A stretch of 64,000 bases of DNA from Halorubrum trapanicum (lineage in GTDB: Archaea > Halobacteriota > Halobacteria > Halobacteriales > Haloferacaceae): the NCBI RefSeq assembly GCF_002355655.1, contig NZ_AP017569.1, positions 2,480,001 to 2,544,000 on the forward strand. The letters run 5' to 3'. The number at the start of each line of letters is the position of its first letter. Positions within the stretch are counted from its first letter, which is position 1. The translations under genes and the position numbers were made by a program. Of this stretch, positions 1,193-10,696 are shown piece after piece. Under the pieces are notes generated by a model. That model was not told where the DNA came from and did not search any database. It saw nothing but the letters and a program-made list of their open reading frames with translations.

Positions 1193-1528
1193 ATGCGCGA
1201 CTCCGCCCCGTGGATGGGCAGTCTCGACGAGCGAATTTTAGAGCGGCTCGCTGAGGACGGTGACGCCGACGCATGGGAGATCGCGTTCGATATTCGCGGG
1301 CGTGTCAGTCAGAGCCGGGTGAGTGATCGGTGCGAGGTTCTGGCGGATGCCGAGCTCGTCGAACAGCACGAGCGCGAGATCGTCGACGGGCGATATGAGG
1401 TCTATTGGTCGATTACGACGTGGGGTGAGCTGTTCTTGGGTGAGGATGTCGACCCGAGTCTCGACGTCCCGGTGCCGAGTCCGCGGCCGCCGCACGCTAC
1501 GCGGCCGAGTGAGTGGGCGGGGTTCTGA
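1193..1528 (+). CDS. Second PhiH1-repressor-like winged-helix protein
   Basis: A 111-aa protein starting on the base after the preceding stop codon. Residues about 8-75 repeat the W-M-x-x-x-D-E-R-I-L-E-x-L opening and a Q-S-R-V-S-D-R-C recognition helix, so it resembles its upstream neighbour. The Pro/Arg-rich tail (about 80-111) looks unstructured. Paired winged-helix repressors of this kind are frequent in haloarchaeal proviruses and integrated elements, which fits the island setting. The target operators cannot be named from sequence. Confidence 0.75.
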   Translation: MRDSAPWMGSLDERILERLAEDGDADAWEIAFDIRGRVSQSRVSDRCEVLADAELVEQHEREIVDGRYEVYWSITTWGELFLGEDVDPSLDVPVPSPRPPHATRPSEWAGF

Positions 1529-1605
1529 GATGTGTCCTGAAACAGTACAATGAATTCGATAGACGAGCTTAAGATTAATTTACTTGTTTGTGGTTGTGTA
1601 TCTCA

Positions 1606-2256
1606 ATGACAGAATTAGCTCAATTCAGTGTCACCCCTATTATAGAGGATCCCCAGTTAGACCGTGGGGAGGATTTGTATCTTAGTATCTATTTCTCCGG
1701 GAATGGGGAAATAGATCATAATAAACTTCATATTCAGTTCCCACTTGACGATGTATTCAAACAAGGTGGAAGTGAATTTGTTGAAACGGTGGAAGACAAC
1801 TACAACATCAACGTGAACAGGGAAAGTGCTTCAGATGTTGGATACTCTATTCGATTGAGTGACGCTCATTTTGAATATGATGAGTCATCAGATTCACCGG
1901 AGGAATTTGGAAGAATTGGCGGTGAGAGGAATCATGGATACAACCCGCCACTGTTAGTGAGATTAAAAACCAAGGACGATGCTAGGCCTGGTGATTATAC
2001 AATTCCAATTACTTTCACATACCAAGATACAGAAGGAAATATTGGACAAGATTACAAGGAATCCTCATTTCATGTAAAATCTTGGCAAGAAGAAAACAGC
2101 GCGATGTTAAAAATAATCGCCGGCTTGGCAGCTATATTTACAGTATTGTCTATTATCATAGGTCCAATATTGGATGGGATAGCGTTTCTTTATCAATTGA
2201 TCGACTTTGCTATATCATTCTATAGCGGCATTCTTGACCAATTCCACTTGTTCTAG
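1606..2256 (+). CDS. Unknown protein, beta-rich ectodomain with C-terminal membrane anchor
   Basis: I do not recognise this 216-aa protein. Residues 1-165 look beta-rich, with alternating hydrophobics and a late 'GDYTIPITFTY' strand pair of Ig/NEW3-like character. Residues about 168-210 are strongly hydrophobic and give one or two membrane segments. I chose ATG 1606 over an in-frame TTG at 1588. Codon use is AT-rich, unlike the chromosome beyond 10.8 kb. Its last 42 bases overlap the convergent gene 2215-2715. It may belong functionally with the opposing four-gene operon, but that is inference from position only. Confidence 0.6.
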   Translation: MTELAQFSVTPIIEDPQLDRGEDLYLSIYFSGNGEIDHNKLHIQFPLDDVFKQGGSEFVETVEDNYNINVNRESASDVGYSIRLSDAHFEYDESSDSPEEFGRIGGERNHGYNPPLLVRLKTKDDARPGDYTIPITFTYQDTEGNIGQDYKESSFHVKSWQEENSAMLKIIAGLAAIFTVLSIIIGPILDGIAFLYQLIDFAISFYSGILDQFHLF

Positions 2257-2715
2257 CACTTCCTCAGCCCTGAGATCAAATATTGTGAGTAAATACCGAT
2301 CTTCTGGCAGGTAGTCGGTATCAGCCTTAATTTCTAACAGTCCATCATCTGACAGAGATTCGTTGGTACGTAGGTTTAGAACTCTTGAACTGGGGTCAAA
2401 ATCTGAATGTTCAGTACCTCTAACACCTGGATACAGAGGTCCTACTGATTCGAAATAGATTGGTAAATTTCCACAGGCATTTGGAACGACAAATACGATC
2501 TTCGCACGGCCTATAAGTCCGCTCTCTTCAGAATATATACGGACTGGATCCCTATCAGATTCATCTTCATTCGTTTCTTCCCCATTTATCAAGGGATCAA
2601 TCCCTATACTAATCCCGTTTCCGAATCCCCCGTTTCCGGCTCCGTCATTGCCCTCTCCCCAGCCACCGTCGGTAATCGCTGGTGTCCTTACTGAAATGGA
2701 TTTGACAGGACCCAT
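2215..2715 (-). CDS. Unknown protein, Gly-rich N-terminus (operon gene 4)
   Basis: A 166-aa protein of no recognised family. Residues about 16-40 are a Gly/Asn-rich low-complexity stretch. Residues 60-166 contain predicted beta strands, an Asn-Ala-Cys-Gly segment, and a C-terminal 'RYLLTIFDLRAEEVLEQVEL' piece. Its ATG shares one base with the stop of the preceding gene (TAATG), so translation is probably coupled. The 3' end overlaps the convergent gene 1606-2256 by 42 bp. It is the last gene of the four-gene minus-strand operon. Confidence 0.55.
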   Translation of the reverse strand: MGPVKSISVRTPAITDGGWGEGNDGAGNGGFGNGISIGIDPLINGEETNEDESDRDPVRIYSEESGLIGRAKIVFVVPNACGNLPIYFESVGPLYPGVRGTEHSDFDPSSRVLNLRTNESLSDDGLLEIKADTDYLPEDRYLLTIFDLRAEEVLEQVELVKNAAIE

Positions 2716-3365
2716 TATTTACTGATAACCTCCCTCTCAAATATCTGGGTAATATACTCAGTATCGTCATTAATTTCCCCATCTTCTGCCTGATTCTGTA
2801 TGTCAAGCGAGTCATCGGCATATGTGACCAATATATTCTGTTTGTTTCTTTCAAATATAATATCTGCCCGCTCTACGATATACTTCCCAGCTATATCTGC
2901 GAGATCAAGGCCATCAATCTCGCTATGCGAACGTAACTGCCCCTTATACAGAATCTCAACTTCCAGAATCTCATCTGCTTCTTTTATAAAATCCCATATA
3001 GCTTGTCTAGTGGGAAACAAACCGGGATAGATTTCGACATTTTCCGGTAGAATTTTCCCTAGTTTTTGTATGATCTCTCCACTAGATGGTGTATCTGACT
3101 CGGTACTCACTAGTATGATGCCAGACCCGCTTCGATAGGAGAGTTCTCCAGAGTATACCCTCTTCACGGACTTATCAAAGGGATTCGTCGTTTCGTATTT
3201 GAATTGAGCTTCGAGAATTCGCTGATCACTATATGGATATTCTTCGATTAAGGGTTCAACATCGATTACCTCAACCGAGGTAATCGATAGTTGTCCGCTC
3301 GACAAGCCCGGTAGGGATGACTCCCACTGAGAGATATCCGAGCTAGCTTTACGGACACTGACCAT
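2715..3365 (-). CDS. Unknown 216-aa protein (operon gene 3)
   Basis: No family recognised. The protein is soluble and acidic, without signal peptide or membrane segment. A 'GSGIILVSTES' strand near residue 80 and a later 'KYIVERADIIFERNKQNILV' region suggest alternating strands and helices. It lies 45 nt downstream of the 339-aa gene and overlaps the 166-aa gene by one base. AT-rich codon use matches the rest of this block and differs from the core chromosome. It is a real gene by length, coding texture and operon packing. Confidence 0.55.
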   Translation of the reverse strand: MVSVRKASSDISQWESSLPGLSSGQLSITSVEVIDVEPLIEEYPYSDQRILEAQFKYETTNPFDKSVKRVYSGELSYRSGSGIILVSTESDTPSSGEIIQKLGKILPENVEIYPGLFPTRQAIWDFIKEADEILEVEILYKGQLRSHSEIDGLDLADIAGKYIVERADIIFERNKQNILVTYADDSLDIQNQAEDGEINDDTEYITQIFEREVISK

Positions 3366-3410
3366 ATCTACGTATTACAGTAGGGATATATGGGTCTTTT
3401 TACCTCACCA

Positions 3411-4430
3411 TCATATTCCGACGTTCCACTCAGACGGCGGTTCATCACGCAAGTTCGCAAAGCGACGCAGTAGTGTATCCGGGATCGTATCGATCCTCAC
3501 TCCTTGGTTGATACACTCTTCGTAGATACCTTCGAAAAACTCGAAGGGAGGATACTTGTCCACAGGATCGAGGGACTCCCAGTGTTCATACAGCTCAACT
3601 AATTCCTTGACGAATTTTATCGCGAGGGCTATGCGAAGCGTATCGTTCGTGGTCTCACTGATCGCTCCCTTCGACGCCTTCACGTGTATCTTCGTTTTTT
3701 CTATTTTAGCGGCTATCTGTACCCCGTCCATCGTAAAGAAGCCCTCAAGCATCGAGACGCTCTTCTGCCGGAGGATTCCAATAAGAAGAGGGGTTGACTG
3801 TCCCAAATTTTGTGAATCGCTAACGATGTTGCTGCGACCAAAGTAGTCCTCACGGCCTTTCGCTTCCGAGTCGGTCAACTTCCTGATTCCAAGCCCCGAA
3901 GCAAGATCGTCACCGGTGCGATATTTATAAAAGAGCCACAGCAGAAAGTCCGCGTCAAATTGAATTTCTCGAAGTAGGACTCCAGTAGAGAGGACTCGCT
4001 GTAGCCGTTCCTTTGCCGACTCCATTTCGCCCTTTTGGCCCCGCAACGCAATGAATTCCGGATGTACCCAGTACGCATCTACATTGTTGATAGTCGGTAT
4101 ATGAACTATTCTACGTTCGCCATCAACCTCAGCTTCTTTTTCGATGAAGTCTTCGTGCTGGTAGCGGATTCCGAGTAAGTTGTCGGCGATTGCTTCCAAT
4201 TCTTCGTCAACATCCTCGTCGTCGCGTATATAATCGCGAATGCTCAGTAGTTCAAATCCGTCTCCAGGTTGACTGAATGACCCGGGCTCAAACTCAGGTA
4301 GATCATCGTGGATCTCGGATTCGACAGTAGTCACCGAGTCGTCTGAATAGATGTTAGAGTCGTCTTCAAACTCTAGAACGGAATTGAATATCAGGTACCC
4401 GCTATAGCTAAATTCGTTTTCCTCTGGCAT
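3411..4430 (-). CDS. Unknown 339-aa protein (operon gene 2)
   Basis: The largest protein of the minus-strand operon; no family recognised. The first 90 residues are acidic and probably flexible. Residues 100-339 look mostly helical, with the aromatic-rich segments 'FLLWLFYKY' and 'ELYEHWESLDPVDKYPPFEFF'. I see no nuclease, ATPase, protease or membrane signature. It starts 52 nt after the 225-aa gene. If this operon is a defence module, this could be its main scaffold or effector, but nothing in the sequence proves a role. Confidence 0.55.
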   Translation of the reverse strand: MPEENEFSYSGYLIFNSVLEFEDDSNIYSDDSVTTVESEIHDDLPEFEPGSFSQPGDGFELLSIRDYIRDDEDVDEELEAIADNLLGIRYQHEDFIEKEAEVDGERRIVHIPTINNVDAYWVHPEFIALRGQKGEMESAKERLQRVLSTGVLLREIQFDADFLLWLFYKYRTGDDLASGLGIRKLTDSEAKGREDYFGRSNIVSDSQNLGQSTPLLIGILRQKSVSMLEGFFTMDGVQIAAKIEKTKIHVKASKGAISETTNDTLRIALAIKFVKELVELYEHWESLDPVDKYPPFEFFEGIYEECINQGVRIDTIPDTLLRRFANLRDEPPSEWNVGI

Positions 4431-4482
4431 GGATTATTATTCGAGTTGATGTGTCTGTATGGTATAAATTTTATCCATCTTA

Positions 4483-5160
4483 TTATTTGTTCAGGTGTAG
4501 AATCTCGTCAATAACGTACTCCGCGAAATCAGTTGATTCGTAATTACTCGGCTGGTATACGTCGATATATCCACTTTCAGTCAGACTCACTTTCACCTTC
4601 TCTTCTCCCCTCCGGTGGTTTACCCCTACTTGATTCTTATTCGAGGTTTTTAGCGTGTTTCCAATGTGAGCGTCGCTAAGTACATTTTCACCGTATACTA
4701 CGCCCTTTTCTGCTTCGCTACCAACTCCATAGAACCCGACCTGCCAAGGTGTACTCTCACTGTGTTCCGACAGGAACTCAGCCAAGTCGAACTCTGCCCT
4801 CTCAACGGACTCTAGTCCGACAATGTCTCTCAGCATGTCGAAGAGGAATACGCCGGAGCCACTGTCGACTACTACAAATTCTCCGGGTACAAAGACGAAC
4901 TCCGTATATTTCGTCTGACGTTGACCCTCTTCGACAACTGTGATCTCCCCTTGATCAGTAATTTGTACGGTTTCCTCTTGAACAATGGATTGAACAGCTG
5001 CGCGGCCAGTTTGGACTGTGAATCCACTCCCCACGTTATTGTGAGTTTGCGTTACTTCGATACACTCGGTTAGTGGTGTACCATCCTGCTCAACCGTTCG
5101 ATGGTAAGATTCCACCTGCCGCGGCTCACCCTCAACAATGCCGATTACTCCTGACTTCAT
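4483..5160 (-). CDS. Unknown 225-aa protein (operon gene 1)
   Basis: First gene of the four-gene minus-strand operon; no family recognised. The N-terminal half is beta-rich and threaded with Thr/Val/Gln. Near residue 95 it has a hydrophobic 'FVFVPGEFVVVDSG' pair of strands followed by 'GVFLFDMLRDIVG'. No membrane or catalytic motif is evident. Its start lies only 23 nt from a small ORF on the other strand, or 187 nt from the CoiA-like gene if that small ORF is not translated, so the two units are divergent. Confidence 0.55.
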   Translation of the reverse strand: MKSGVIGIVEGEPRQVESYHRTVEQDGTPLTECIEVTQTHNNVGSGFTVQTGRAAVQSIVQEETVQITDQGEITVVEEGQRQTKYTEFVFVPGEFVVVDSGSGVFLFDMLRDIVGLESVERAEFDLAEFLSEHSESTPWQVGFYGVGSEAEKGVVYGENVLSDAHIGNTLKTSNKNQVGVNHRRGEEKVKVSLTESGYIDVYQPSNYESTDFAEYVIDEILHLNK

Positions 5161-5183
5161 GATAGTTGGATAAAACGACCCGG

Positions 5184-5351
5184 ATGAAAAACTCTAGCTA
5201 TTCGGAAATAGGTCAGTACATTCTTCACAACTATCTACTCTGGGGAGGCACCTCGCTAAATCAAATTGAAAAACATCTTGCTCACTCGTTTCACTTTCAC
5301 CACACTTGTGATCAACTTATTTCGTCGGATTTCATAGATCCCGGTATATGA
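5184..5351 (+). CDS. Possible 55-aa coupled ORF upstream of CoiA-like gene
   Basis: This short ORF begins at ATG 5184 (a TTG at 5166 is in frame) and its TGA overlaps the ATG of the CoiA-like gene as ATGA. Residues 20-50 have a helix-rich pattern with several His residues (H-F-H-F-H-H) and could form a small winged-helix-like unit. The overlap is the main argument that it is translated. Against it, only 23 nt separate it from the divergent gene, which leaves little room for two promoters. Treat as tentative. Confidence 0.35.
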   Translation: MKNSSYSEIGQYILHNYLLWGGTSLNQIEKHLAHSFHFHHTCDQLISSDFIDPGI

Positions 5352-6715
5352 GTTTCATAGCCCTCCTTGACGGCGAAAAAGCGATTTCACCGTTCGAGGT
5401 TGATCAGCCAGATCCCAATCTCAACTGTGTTGAGTGCGAAGGGCCAATGTACGTCGTTGTTGAACACACACGGAACAACGGAGCGCTCGTCTCTCGCCAC
5501 TTCAGACATAATCCCGGCGTCGACGACAGCAACTGTAACCTCAGCGGCGAGAGCGACATCCACGAGAAACGAAAGACAATCGCGCTCTCAAAAGCGCTTG
5601 TTGAGTTCGAGGGGAACTGCGCTGAGTGGGGAGTTGAAGAGCAGATCGGGTCCAAGCGGGCAGACTCCTTTGTCCGGTTCGAGGAGCCGCATCCGAAGTA
5701 CGGTCACGGACTGGCAATCGAGTACCAACACAAGAACATCTCCAAGAACCGCGACGAGTCAACCCAGAACTACCTCGACGAGGGATTCACCACTGTCTGG
5801 CTCTGGGACGGTCAGTTCACGAGTGACGATGATGTCGATCTCTTCGAGGGCGAAGTCGTCCCCGTGTGGCCCACCGCAGTCCCAGACCGTTCTGAGTGGG
5901 GGCCGACAGACGAATTCGAGTTCGATATGTTCCCGCTCCGCTCATGGACCACTTCTGGCGAGGACAGTTCTCCGGGATTCAGCTCCTACTTGAAACCAGA
6001 TCGCATTACTCGCCATCGCCAAACGGCTCGGGACGTTTGGGACTTTGAGTTCCCTGATTCGCCTTCGATATTGGTTCGTCTCCCGGACGAGTGGTACGAC
6101 CGCTATATCCGCGAGCTTTGGGACACCGCACCGTGGGACCTCCGGTTCGACGATCCCGGCTCGTACGGCTTGGAGAGATGGATCGCTAGCGCAAGCGACG
6201 AGCAACCGGAAGTAGCAATTTCGGTGATTCTTCCTCCCGAGTATTATCAAGAATTGGCCACTGACCTCCGGCGTTCCGTTCCATGGGAGCAGTTCTTCTC
6301 CGGTACGGTTTTCGAGAACAACGACTCTCTCCGTCACCCCCGATCCGGTGTCACGGGTGCCGATTCGAGACCGGACGTTACAGGGTCGCTCCCATTTGTG
6401 GATTGGTTAATCGATACAAAGAGAGTGATCAGGCTGAAAGATCGGTCGAGCAGCTATCGTCTGGTTTCTCTCGATGACGCCGATCCCGACGACTACTATC
6501 GGTACCTTCTCCCTCACGAGTTGGCTCTCAAAACGGATTATGGAGGACCAGAACCTCCGCCGGGCACATTTGATGATGTTCAGTGTCGGAACTGTGGCAG
6601 GTACTGGTATGTTGGTGAAGAGCGGCTAGAGTGTCAAAAATGTGGCTCAGACGTTGATTGGGACTGGAACATGAGAACGGGCCGAATTGGTTCTGTGCCA
6701 GACTATGTAGAGTAG
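5348..6715 (+). CDS. CoiA-like nuclease with N- and C-terminal zinc sites
   Basis: A 455-aa protein with the layout of competence protein CoiA-like nucleases. An N-terminal zinc-finger-like part carries Cys27-x2-Cys30 and R-H-F-R-H at 50-54. A PD-(D/E)XK-type core follows, with His72-Glu73, Asp106 and Glu125-x-Gln127, the E-x-Q variant seen in CoiA. Residues 180-400 are not recognised. A zinc ribbon closes the protein (Cys413/416 and Cys429/432). Bacterial CoiA acts in DNA uptake, whereas archaeal relatives usually sit in mobile or defence loci. Here it lies between an unknown operon and a restriction-modification set, so an anti-element nuclease role is plausible. The nuclease call is good; its biology is inferred. 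Confidence 0.7.
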   Translation: MSFIALLDGEKAISPFEVDQPDPNLNCVECEGPMYVVVEHTRNNGALVSRHFRHNPGVDDSNCNLSGESDIHEKRKTIALSKALVEFEGNCAEWGVEEQIGSKRADSFVRFEEPHPKYGHGLAIEYQHKNISKNRDESTQNYLDEGFTTVWLWDGQFTSDDDVDLFEGEVVPVWPTAVPDRSEWGPTDEFEFDMFPLRSWTTSGEDSSPGFSSYLKPDRITRHRQTARDVWDFEFPDSPSILVRLPDEWYDRYIRELWDTAPWDLRFDDPGSYGLERWIASASDEQPEVAISVILPPEYYQELATDLRRSVPWEQFFSGTVFENNDSLRHPRSGVTGADSRPDVTGSLPFVDWLIDTKRVIRLKDRSSSYRLVSLDDADPDDYYRYLLPHELALKTDYGGPEPPPGTFDDVQCRNCGRYWYVGEERLECQKCGSDVDWDWNMRTGRIGSVPDYVE

Positions 6716-6718
6716 AAT

Positions 6719-6976
6719 CTATTCCTCGGTGAATTCCCACTCCAGCGTATCAGGGTCAACCCGCACTACACCGACCTTCGCCGTTTCATCCATCACAGCG
6801 ATATCGATTTGATCTCGAACGTGCGACTCGACGGAGAGCTCTTCGAGTCGCCACTCTTGCGTATCTAACTCCGGCGGAATATCGTCTCCAGACACGACGT
6901 TCACCGATCGAAGTGTCCCATACCGTTCTGACGTGACCTCCACTTCGACAGGGAATTCAACGAGGTCACCGCTCAT
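6719..6976 (-). CDS. Small acidic hypothetical protein, 85 aa
   Basis: An acidic 85-aa protein with alternating beta-type residues and no recognised domain. Its stop lies three bases from the stop of the convergent CoiA-like gene, and it diverges from the methyltransferase with a 140-nt gap. Codon use is intermediate between the AT-rich block and the methyltransferase. It could be a small partner or antitoxin-like protein, but no motif supports that. Confidence 0.5.
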   Translation of the reverse strand: MSGDLVEFPVEVEVTSERYGTLRSVNVVSGDDIPPELDTQEWRLEELSVESHVRDQIDIAVMDETAKVGVVRVDPDTLEWEFTEE

Positions 6977-7116: not shown

Positions 7117-8328
7117 ATGAGTCAGCAGGACCTGACCTACGTCGATCTGTTCGCGGGAGCGGGCGGACTCTCCGTCGGCCTCGAACGCGCCGGCTTCGAG
7201 CTCGTCCACGCCGTCGAGGTCGACGACGACGCCCGCGCCTCGTTCGCGAACAATCGCGAGGGTCTGGAGCCGGCGGAGCTGACGCAGGACATCCGCGAGG
7301 TCGACAACCAAGATGTCACCGAGGTCGTCGGCCGCGACACCGTCGACCTCGTCGCCGGCGGTCCGCCCTGTCAGGGATTCTCCGAGGTGGTCAGTCCCGA
7401 CGGGAGCGACGACCGGAACCACCTCTTCGTGAACTTCATCTCGTGGGTGAACGAGCTCGACCCGAAGGCGGCGCTGTTCGAGAACGTCCGTGGGATGCAA
7501 AACACCGCCGACGGGAAGTTTCTCGACGCCGTCGAGGAGTCGTTCGGCGAGATGGGCTACGATGTCAGCTACCGCGTCGTAAAGGCGTCCGACTTCGGCG
7601 TCCCGCAGCAGCGTCACCGCCTGCTGGTGCTCGCGACGAAGCGCTCGACGACCGAGTTCCCCTTCGACGGCTTCGAGTTAGACCCGATCGAGACCCCCGG
7701 CGTGATCGCCGGAATCGGCGACCTCCCCGAAGTCAGTCCCGGCGAGGAGAAGACCGAGTACGACGTCGAGCCGACGACGGTCATTCAGGATGACCTCCGC
7801 GGCGACAACACCGATCTCACCCACCACCAAGCCGCGAACCACACCGAGGACATGGTGGAGATGATTTCGCACATCTCTGACGGTGGAAACCGAACCGAGA
7901 TCCCGGACGAGCTCCAGCCGTCCTCGGGCTACCACAACTCTTACTCTCGACTCGATTCGCGGGAGCCGGCCGTCGCGATCACCTCGAACATGTCGAAGCC
8001 CTCCAGCGCCCGGTGTATCCACCCGTTCCAGCATCGCGGGCTCACGCCGCGCGAGGGGGCGCGCTTACAGACGTTCCCCGACTGGTACCGCTTCGACGGC
8101 GGCCTCGTCTCGGTCCGGAAGCAGATCGGGAACGCGGTGCCGCCGTACCTCGCGGAGTCCGTCGGCTACTACCTCAAGCAGAGCGTCTACAGCCAGACGC
8201 TGACCGACGAGGAGCGAGAGCGCATCTACAAGCTCCGCTGTGGTGGGATGGACCTCGCCGAGTTCGAGGAGGAGAAGTCAGATATCGGCGGCCACGCGCA
8301 GCAGGTCACGCTTGACTTCGCTGACTGA
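7117..8328 (+). CDS. dcm: DNA (cytosine-5) methyltransferase
   Basis: A 403-aa m5C methyltransferase that transfers a methyl group from S-adenosylmethionine to cytosine in DNA. All key motifs are visible: motif I D-L-F-A-G-A-G-G (10-17), motif IV G-G-P-P-C-Q-G-F-S with nucleophile Cys85, E-N-V (122-124), motif VIII Q-Q-R-H-R (164-168) and motif X G-N-A-V-P-P near 338. The target-recognition region is the variable stretch before motif IX, so specificity cannot be read. Two PD-(D/E)XK nuclease genes follow on the same strand after a 163-nt gap, which points to a type II restriction-modification system. Confidence 0.92.
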   Translation: MSQQDLTYVDLFAGAGGLSVGLERAGFELVHAVEVDDDARASFANNREGLEPAELTQDIREVDNQDVTEVVGRDTVDLVAGGPPCQGFSEVVSPDGSDDRNHLFVNFISWVNELDPKAALFENVRGMQNTADGKFLDAVEESFGEMGYDVSYRVVKASDFGVPQQRHRLLVLATKRSTTEFPFDGFELDPIETPGVIAGIGDLPEVSPGEEKTEYDVEPTTVIQDDLRGDNTDLTHHQAANHTEDMVEMISHISDGGNRTEIPDELQPSSGYHNSYSRLDSREPAVAITSNMSKPSSARCIHPFQHRGLTPREGARLQTFPDWYRFDGGLVSVRKQIGNAVPPYLAESVGYYLKQSVYSQTLTDEERERIYKLRCGGMDLAEFEEEKSDIGGHAQQVTLDFAD

Positions 8329-8491: not shown

Positions 8492-9682
8492 ATGAGTAGA
8501 TGGAGCGACGATCGTGCCGACCACGACGATGAAGCGATAGAGATGTTTTTACAGAGCCATTTCCCGGCCACCTATTTCGGGAATCAATCGGATCTGTCGG
8601 CATCCGACGGCTTTGACGATGGGATCTCAGACGCTGAGCGCAATGTGATTGATGCGCTCGTTTCTGAGGCGGGGACGCAGTTCGCATCTTCGAAAGGGAC
8701 GCTAGGGCTCGCGATCGACTTTGTTGTCCTCGCCGAAGAACTGGCAAAGTACGACGACTGGCTGGCCGGTTTCAACCCTGACATCACTGTCGACGACATC
8801 CTCGACCGCTACGAGAGCACGGCGAAGTCGTCGCTGACACTGAAACGCGGTGACACTCGGGAAGGGATCCGAGCGTTCCACAACGAGCTGATCGAACTGT
8901 TCCGGGAGGACCTGAACCGAACCAACTTCCCGAGTTCGCCGGGACACCACACCGGCGAGTGGGAGCGGTACGACGACATGCTCGAACTCGCGTTCCGGCT
9001 CTCCCGCGACGGTCGCTTCGTCGCCGCACAGGAACTCTTCGACCTCGGGCTAGAGCGGTTGGAATCGAGCGAGTACGAACGGCGTGACCCGCCGTTCGAA
9101 GAGCCGTTCCTGAAGGTACTCCGAGACTACACACGCAAGGCCCCAAATGAACAGGGCGGATCGGCGTACCAGGCTCTCTGTTACGGGTACGTCAAAGCGG
9201 AGTGGCCGCACTTGTCTCTCCGCGCGAGTAAGGTCCGAACCGGCTCCTCGCGTCAGCAGCGGTACGGCGACATTGACGGGTACCACGGTCCCGACCTCAT
9301 GATCTCGGTCGAGGTCAAGGACCGCGTTATCGATGAATCGAACGTCAGTGCCGAACTCGGCACGATGATGAAGGTCGCACAGAACACGACAGCGATCGCC
9401 ATCGCGATCTGTACAGAGGTGAGTCCGGAAGCCCGCGAAACGCTCGAAGAAGCGGATGTCCGGGTCCTGGATGACGAGGACATCAGCCGACAGCTTCGAT
9501 TCTGGGACTACCACAAGCAGAACCGAGCGCTTCACGGAATGGTTCACTTCTTCGCCAACATCGAGGAGAATCCAGACGGCGTTCAGCGACTCTTACGGTT
9601 CGTTGCGAGCATCGACCCGGACAACCGCGTCCTCGACCATCTCGCGGACTCGGACGTACAGATGGGGCTCGACGAAACATGA
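8492..9682 (+). CDS. Putative restriction endonuclease subunit A (PD-(D/E)XK)
   Basis: A 396-aa protein with a PD-(D/E)XK active site: Pro267-Asp268, then Glu274-Val-Lys276 (D-x5-E-x-K). Around 225-260 a basic segment (R-T-G-S-S-R-Q-Q-R) could contact DNA. The N-terminal 200 residues are helical and unassigned. Some features recall the SacI-type endonuclease family, but I cannot confirm this by eye. It follows the m5C methyltransferase, and its 3' end overlaps the next nuclease gene as ATGA. A restriction role for the module is likely. Confidence 0.7.
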   Translation: MSRWSDDRADHDDEAIEMFLQSHFPATYFGNQSDLSASDGFDDGISDAERNVIDALVSEAGTQFASSKGTLGLAIDFVVLAEELAKYDDWLAGFNPDITVDDILDRYESTAKSSLTLKRGDTREGIRAFHNELIELFREDLNRTNFPSSPGHHTGEWERYDDMLELAFRLSRDGRFVAAQELFDLGLERLESSEYERRDPPFEEPFLKVLRDYTRKAPNEQGGSAYQALCYGYVKAEWPHLSLRASKVRTGSSRQQRYGDIDGYHGPDLMISVEVKDRVIDESNVSAELGTMMKVAQNTTAIAIAICTEVSPEARETLEEADVRVLDDEDISRQLRFWDYHKQNRALHGMVHFFANIEENPDGVQRLLRFVASIDPDNRVLDHLADSDVQMGLDET

Positions 9683-10398
9683 AGCGGCCAGAGGTCCGAG
9701 AGCGCTTCGTCAACCGCGATGCGGAGCTCCCCTACGGACTCGAAGTCTCGCAGGTCGTGAGCGCGATCGAGAGCTTCTACGAGTACTGGCACGAGGTGAA
9801 TGAGTGGCACCTCGAACAAGGGTACGGACGGTTCCACGAGCAGTTCCGAGCGAACAACGCGATTGGTGGCTTCGTCAGTCACCGACTAACCACTCGTTTT
9901 GCGGAAGAGTCTCCGGACTTCGTCCTCAACCGTCTCGACGACGGATACCCGGACTTGCTCTACGATGGGACCGATCACGAATGGCCGGACAATTACGCAG
10001 TCAAGGATTCCGACAACGGTCCGGGCTTGGAAGTCAAAGCGTCGAAGGGGAACACGTTCTACGCACACCACAATGTCGAGGGGTGGCTCCTCGGAATCCA
10101 CTATCGGATAAACGCGCGGAGCAAGTCCGCCACGGACGACGCCCCCGCCCCGAACGAGACGCCGCCTATCGATGTCACACAGGTCCTGTGCGCGAGCATG
10201 GACCACGAGGACTGGGAGTACCGCGACGCCGAGGGCTCGAACCGGACGAACACCAGCGAGCTAAAGGCGAAAGTCGGGCTTCACGAGATGCGGAAGAACC
10301 CGATCATCGAGATGGAGTCTGCGATTACCGGAGTGGGAGATCTCCTTCGAGAGTACAAACAGGCCCACGCTGAGTTCGACCCAGACTACTCGGTATAA
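9679..10398 (+). CDS. Putative restriction endonuclease subunit B (PD-(D/E)XK)
   Basis: A 239-aa protein starting inside the end of the preceding nuclease gene (ATGA overlap), so the two are almost certainly co-translated. It has its own PD-(D/E)XK set: Pro91-Asp92 and Glu118-Val-Lys120 after a longer spacer, followed by A-S-K-G. No helicase or methylase domain is present. Two nuclease-fold proteins from overlapping genes suggest a heteromeric restriction enzyme, or a main endonuclease with a nicking or accessory partner. Which subunit recognises DNA is unknown. Confidence 0.65.
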   Translation: MKRPEVRERFVNRDAELPYGLEVSQVVSAIESFYEYWHEVNEWHLEQGYGRFHEQFRANNAIGGFVSHRLTTRFAEESPDFVLNRLDDGYPDLLYDGTDHEWPDNYAVKDSDNGPGLEVKASKGNTFYAHHNVEGWLLGIHYRINARSKSATDDAPAPNETPPIDVTQVLCASMDHEDWEYRDAEGSNRTNTSELKAKVGLHEMRKNPIIEMESAITGVGDLLREYKQAHAEFDPDYSV

Positions 10399-10489: not shown

Positions 10490-10621
10490 TGGGTTGGTGC
10501 GGATTTGAACCTCAGTCACTCCGCTCGCTAGCGCTCGCTCCGTTCCCTGCTTCAAATCCGCGGCACCATTTTGTCGACACGGACCGCTCGCTGTCGCTCG
10601 CGGTTGCGGTGTCGACAAAAA
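10490..10621. repeat. tRNA 3'-end fragments in alternating orientation (att-like scar)
   Basis: Positions 10490-10510 repeat the 3' end of the adjacent tRNA-Val (10622-10643) with one mismatch over about 21 bases. Positions 10551-10569 carry an inverted tRNA T-arm/acceptor-like piece. Positions 10571-10582 and 10610-10621 are near-perfect inverted copies of TTTTGTCGACAC. The fragments are separated by short GC-rich linkers rich in CGCTCGC. Duplicated tRNA 3' ends are the usual trace of integrase-mediated insertion, so this is a likely attachment-site scar bounding the island. No integrase is present in the window. Confidence 0.6.
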
Positions 10622-10696
10622 TGGGTTGGGGCGGATTTGAACCGCCGGCCTCCTCCATGTCAAGGAGGTGTCATAACCGGACTAGACTACCAACCC
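10622..10696 (-). tRNA. tRNA-Val (GAC)
   Basis: On the minus strand a complete 75-nt cloverleaf is readable. The acceptor stem GGGTTGG pairs with CCAACCC, followed by discriminator A. The anticodon stem CCTCC/GGAGG encloses loop TTGACAT with anticodon GAC, and the T-arm is GGCGG-TTCAAAT-CCGCC. CCA is not encoded and no intron is seen. The 3' end faces the accessory island, the usual geometry for integration into a tRNA gene. Confidence 0.95.

Follow-up and report, generated by a model that had tools for sequence, protein, structure and literature searches.

Could a haloarchaeal relative of the bacterial competence protein CoiA serve in defense, or does it take part in DNA exchange? Both roles had been proposed in an initial annotation for the gene at 5348–6715 (+ strand) of the window, by which we mean the whole 64,000-nucleotide stretch of Halorubrum trapanicum DNA that was analyzed. 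The gene begins with ATG and encodes 455 aa. Because the gene upstream of it (4483–5160) is divergent and the gene downstream (6719–6976) is convergent, it looks like a single-gene unit. A homologue in a second genome is 66% identical over residues 15–455 of the window protein, and 11 positions are invariant in the family alignment, so 5348–6715 is no chance ORF.

The residues from which the annotation had recognized a CoiA-type core with E-x-Q and an N-terminal Cys/His motif are all present in this ORF. The N-terminal knuckle, CxxC..HFxH..C, spans residues 27–63 (5426–5536, +), consists of C27, C30, H51, H54, and C63, and may bind zinc. The PD-(D/E)XK-type core, assigned from the core model and the motif residues, covers residues 68–171 (5549–5860, +) and carries D106 (codon 5663–5665), E125 (codon 5720–5722), and Q127 (codon 5726–5728), all on the + strand, together with K133. 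Approximately 225 residues and a four-Cys ribbon follow the core. Self-alignment of the protein revealed an internal repeat (LPxEWYD..LW..PW), with copy 1 at residues 241–264 (6068–6139, +) and copy 2 at residues 291–314 (6218–6289, +). The zinc-ribbon-like motif, also named in the annotation, is found at residues 413–432 (6584–6643, +) as C413/C416/C429/C432. Cys residues were confirmed at positions 27, 30, 63, 91, 413, 416, 429, and 432.

Does the core have the fold of a PD-(D/E)XK nuclease? An AF2 model of residues 1–185, computed with eight sequences (pLDDT 76.8, pTM 0.72), places helices at residues 68–86 and 135–144 and strands at 91–100, 103–115, 119–127, and 147–153. This predicted alpha-beta3-alpha-beta order is that of the PD-(D/E)XK superfamily, with D106 on strand 2 and E125-x-Q127 on strand 3, residues that are kept in 67, 67, and 66 of 67 family members, respectively. 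When the core was compared with known structures using VIA-align, the top match was 1wdj (Z 8.0, rmsd 3.1, 96 aligned), followed by 6okh (7.5), 3dnx (7.3), 9y1l (7.0), and 3ot2 (6.9); Hjc (6.7) and TnsA (6.3) ranked lower. These scores are in the middling range by the tool's own scale, and other kinds of chain came close behind, for example an ATP-synthase chain at Z 6.5. We take the top rows to be members of the PD-(D/E)XK superfamily, in part from their titles and from PMC1189080 and in part by assumption. Foldseek gave no match for the core at E ≤ 0.001 (the best, BpuSI, was at 0.039), and a sequence search of the PDB returned MHC chains and other unconvincing rows only. The predicted structure thus agrees with a PD-(D/E)XK nuclease, so that the outcome named in the annotation as refuting its reading, a predicted structure without this fold, did not occur. 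Because the structural scores are only middling, our assignment of this predicted fold draws jointly on the topology, on where the motif sits, and on the CoiA profiles.

The relationship to CoiA itself, as first proposed, gained support from the profiles of the family. For the window protein, CoiA_nuc scored 15.5 bits against the Pfam cut-off of 20.3, DUF7830 scored 16.6 bits against 27.5, and CoiA_N was not listed at E ≤ 10. Among 65 members, CoiA_N matched 17 at E ≤ 0.01 (best 1.1e-06) and CoiA_nuc matched 7 at the same threshold (best 7.3e-07). Because CoiA_nuc exceeded its cut-off in only 1 of 97 haloarchaeal genomes (26.3 bits), the family is mostly invisible to this profile. According to an excerpt of a 2005 paper (PMC1189080), CoiA has an EXQ site and belongs to the PD-(D/E)XK superfamily, 1wdj being named there as a fold-recognition template.

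How widespread is the family? A protein-query search found matches in 106 of 391 haloarchaeal genomes and 51 of 86 genera, a count that includes the own genome and a few weak or partial matches (e.g., G037, G118, and G135). Among the near genomes, 16 of 59 had a match, which in G032 and G037 was limited to the ribbon. Matches were also found in 60 of 72,556 plasmid records, each of them haloarchaeal by name; the 60 best plasmid places are annotated as hypothetical protein (53) or CoiA protein (5) or are unannotated (2). For the family set, 120 members, including the window protein and some named-plasmid copies of sampled genomes, were taken from 109 fetched stretches and thinned to 67 non-redundant rows for conservation counts. 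C27, C30, H51, F52, H54, C63, E68, S69, D106, E125, and K133 are kept in all 67 members and H72, E97, Q127, and W151 in 66; in a 65-member alignment, window included, the invariant positions are C27, C30, H51, F52, H54, E68, S69, D106, G121, E125, and K133. A C-terminal extension, which the annotation had regarded as an addition special to this protein, turned out to be the rule, with 110 of the 120 members being 321–458 aa long. Some members are short, and seven listed places in the haloarchaeal genome search contain an internal stop, both being common traits of accessory genes. In a hand-compiled count restricted to assemblies with no more than six contigs and made without G037, G059, G112, G146, G229, G314, and G335, 41 of 53 members lie on contigs <1 Mb, and the other 12, the window's included, on chromosome-size contigs. 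The family is widespread, little described, and often plasmid-borne in haloarchaea.

A viral origin was also considered and rejected: tblastn gave no match among the 50,697 phage records of INPHARED, and five pattern scans of IMG/VR, a type of scan that detects only some of the relatives, gave no confirmed relative. The matches in PHROGs were weak, were to nameless families, and involved no more than 5 of 65 members. Sampling of archaeal viruses is sparse.

What distinguishes the C-terminal regions? By similarity, the 67 rows form five classes of 21, 21, 10, 7, and 3 rows plus five single proteins. In a pattern search, the CxxC...CxxC ribbon was found in 8 of the 67 (10 of 110 before thinning), the window protein included, and all 8 belong to its own class, class C (8 of 10 rows); no such ribbon occurs in class B, although Cys pairs of other kinds are numerous there. 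Three of the eight (L025, L100, and L103) carry a ribbon of different sequence. The internal repeat of the window protein reached a self-alignment z of 5.0, above all 60 shuffles, and z was at least 5 in five of the ten class-C rows (the window protein, L025, L100, L103, and L117) and below 5 in L019, L020, L052, L053, and L102. Another repeat, with a spacing of ~80 residues, had z of at least 4 in 9 of the 21 class-A rows. Compared with its nearest relative, the window protein is 71% identical in the N-terminal part versus 61% in the C-terminal part. The full-length model is poor outside the core, with pLDDT <50 for residues 173–407, and this predicted C-terminal structure is unreliable, which counts against the defense reading. 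Elsewhere, a DUF5906 protein of another genome (L015:1–1698), which we take to be primase-like, has at its C terminus a ribbon that shares 48% identity with that of the window nuclease.

Could these regions be swappable modules? This idea was rejected using a quick tree of the N-terminal domain for the 67 rows, with some long branches, on which the five classes (62 rows, the five singles being uncounted) require 5 class changes compared with a minimum of 4 and a shuffled mean of 32.9. Since the classes follow the N-terminal tree, the C-terminal modules have not often been swapped, and the C-terminal types are old lineages.

Does the locus itself point to a function? Downstream of the nuclease gene, an 85-aa ORF (6719–6976, −; also in Halorubrum tebenquichense, G028, and G371) is followed by restriction–modification (R-M) genes, namely a C5-cytosine DNA methyltransferase (7117–8328, +; PF00145 5e-66, MTase_II 1.6e-104) and a type II restriction enzyme (8492–9682, +; PADLOC REase_II PDLC03399 2.1e-32). 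A 239-aa ORF with no family above curated cut-off (9679–10398, +) overlaps the end of the restriction gene. In H. tebenquichense (G021), the order is the nuclease (66%), an extra 143-aa gene, the 85-aa ORF (56%), the methylase (88%), a McrB/McrC-like pair, and the restriction enzyme (83%). The McrB/McrC-like pair (L052:4263–7141), which runs in the opposite direction, separates the methylase gene from the restriction gene, whereas these two genes adjoin each other in the window. The GC content is 0.40–0.64 at ~0.5–10.5 kb, compared with 0.66–0.76 rightward and 0.66–0.78 in the 40 kb leftward. The right edge of this low-GC region is a tRNA-Val (gac) gene (10622–10696, −), and its 3′ part recurs as a partial copy (21 of 22 bases; 10490–10511, +) ~110 bp from the intact tRNA. 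We infer that the low-GC region integrated at tRNA-Val.

A collinear chromosome comparison showed that the 5.5-kb segment at 1196–6730 is replaced by 41 bp in a close relative (G028), the chromosome of which is collinear at 90–96% and lacks the nuclease. Similarly, G371 has the 85-aa ORF and the R-M genes, with 561 bp in place of 1196–6730. The restriction enzyme was matched in 22 of 391 genomes, and the nuclease lies beside it in 2 of these 22. These results indicate that the nuclease comes and goes at the locus and that the R-M genes are not dependent on it; this independence of the R-M cassette counts against a defense role. Could the nuclease itself, acting like TnsA or a homing enzyme, be what mobilizes the 5.5-kb segment? 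The clean presence and absence of 1196–6730 would fit, and TnsA and the homing enzyme I-Bth0305I are both among the fold matches (Z 6.3 each), but these matches are tied with many other chains and no target duplication was noticed when the junction was read by eye. We regard such a role as very improbable. The same segment contains four tightly packed genes (2215–5160, −) with no Pfam family above cut-off. Relatives of the 339-aa protein encoded at 3411–4430 were found in 23 of 242 haloarchaeal genomes, and only in the window does this protein lie beside the nuclease.

Is the nuclease linked to defense genes across the family? The neighborhood test covered 52 members, 48 contigs, and 80 genomes, with places compiled by hand, related replicons counted separately, contigs lacking a match mostly left out (these add to neither side), and one of three members on G075:C3 omitted. 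GmrSD_N was found within 10 kb of 16 of the 52 members, compared with an expectation of 3.5 for these contigs (none of 5000 random draws reached 16), and within 3 kb of 13, compared with 1.1 expected. Thirteen of the 16 links come from two sets of related neighborhoods (7 and 6 contigs), which weakens the case for defense. Among the matches listed, N6_Mtase occurred within 10 kb of 8 of the 52 members versus 3.5 expected (p 0.014) and within 3 kb of none versus 1.1 expected, the latter again speaking against defense. Other examples include a Halobacterium hubeiense plasmid in which the nuclease lies just upstream of Hachiman HamA, plasmids with McrC or Piwi-domain genes, and a member adjoining a DUF262 gene.

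For the direct neighbors, genes were predicted with a simple gene caller, so that small or AT-rich genes may be missing, and 126 of 128 neighbors were surveyed (two of ~50 residues were excluded). The Pfam families seen most often were Helicase_C (6), DEAD (5), ResIII (5), ParA-like (4), Cdc6 (4), integrase (4), and HNH (3), and GmrSD_N and HSDR_N had 2 each among the 25 commonest of 104 families. Helicase, ParA-like, Cdc6, or integrase neighbors are at least as frequent as restriction genes, a further point against defense. A fixed partner gene was sought but not found, which likewise counts against defense; the top neighbor clusters (ParA-like, Orc1/Cdc6-like, integrase, and helicase) are at varying positions. 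Seven stretches (L135:7935–10312, L058, L076, L120, L136, L140, and L142) contain a tandem pair of different CoiA-like genes, in the same orientation and <200 bp apart, and in L143, the two are 1.9 kb apart; the tandem arrangement suggests a two-nuclease unit. A helicase-like protein of ~1600 aa with PbeA similarity (L082:8538–13328, also L086) is present in eight fetched stretches, and in five of these its gene immediately precedes the nuclease gene, in the same orientation.

Could the nuclease instead serve the plasmids that carry it? It might cut rival or incompatible plasmids or process replication or partition intermediates of its own replicon, as would suit the preponderance of small contigs, the ParA-like and Cdc6 neighbors (raw counts), and an Orc1/Cdc6-like gene that is the divergent neighbor in 9 stretches, related plasmids among them. 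The members on chromosome-size contigs, the window's included, argue against this role, which we consider unlikely while giving it some weight. Less likely still is a CoiA-like recombination factor that processes DNA from mating, cell fusion, or uptake. The relationship to CoiA at the domain level would favor it, and pneumococcal CoiA has been implicated in recombination (Desai and Morrison 2007, as cited in an excerpt of PMC7938551). On the other hand, the family is accessory and patchy, with the internal stops noted above, and, among the same 25 commonest families, no recombination or uptake gene was found except site-specific integrases. A competence or recombination role is unsupported.

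We favor a stand-alone defense-type DNA nuclease on mobile or accessory DNA, to which we give about an even chance. This reading draws on the kept motif, the predicted nuclease topology, the patchy presence, the small replicons, the lack of a confirmed match in viral collections, the context of R-M, McrBC (in a second species), GmrSD, N6_Mtase, and HamA genes, and the precedent of a CoiA-domain protein recovered in an anti-phage selection in E. coli, as described in part of PMC9519451 (2022). It is the most likely reading but a circumstantial one, so that, of the two roles first proposed, defense gained support from context only and DNA exchange gained none. On the opposite side, PADLOC-DB 2.0.0 gave no model for the window protein at E ≤ 1 and none for any of 65 members at E ≤ 1e-3 (the best, at E 0.0087, was unconvincing), and our literature search found no experiment on the haloarchaeal CoiA-like family. 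Among the open-access papers searched, none was found that joins CoiA with haloarchaea, nor was there one among the titles and abstract openings of the best matches.

How might such a nuclease work? The analysis itself establishes the gene, its family, the invariant motif, the predicted core topology, the internal repeat, the plasmid and defense-gene context, and the presence and absence of the gene, and from these we deduce nuclease activity, metal and zinc binding, a target, and a defense role. The PD-(D/E)XK core (D106, E125, Q127, and K133), probably with a divalent metal, would cut DNA, and the N-terminal Cys/His knuckle, fused to this core, may provide a zinc site that either supports the structure or contacts DNA. 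The C-terminal part would recognize something about plasmid or viral DNA that enters the cell, or about the replication complex of that DNA, and bring the core there. In the window protein, the putative recognition part would consist of the two related repeats and the zinc ribbon, and in other classes, of other repeats or Cys-rich parts. More tentatively, and with the chances against it, the family could constitute a haloarchaea-wide immune family of single-gene CoiA-fold nucleases, with lineage-specific, partly repeat-built C-termini that each sense a different replicon mark, carried by plasmids against rival plasmids and viruses; we found no description of it as a defense system.

Most descriptions of haloarchaeal immunity concern CRISPR, BREX-like, and R-M systems. 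A nuclease family matched in about one-quarter of the sampled haloarchaeal genomes, absent from PADLOC and for the most part scoring under the Pfam cut-off, would give this immunity one more component. The family also provides a concrete test case: is immunity, in addition to competence, a function of CoiA-type domains?

Among known systems, the COG4636/DUF820-type nucleases (TT1808, 1wdj) provide the closest structural match to the window core, from the same template that was named for CoiA in 2005 in the excerpt above. The identity between 1wdj and the window core is 10%. We presume that 1wdj has neither a zinc knuckle nor a long C-terminal part. The E. coli CoiA-domain anti-phage system, compared by its description in part of PMC9519451 only, shares the CoiA domain and an accessory defense context with the window family, whereas none of the 65 window-family members matches a PADLOC model at the threshold given above. 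Compared with the CoiA family, the window family has other C-terminal regions, is haloarchaeal, and is often on plasmids, and the window protein scores under the Pfam cut-off, but an N-terminal Cys/His domain and a PD-EXQ nuclease core like those of CoiA are matched by profile in 17 and 7 of the 65 members, respectively.
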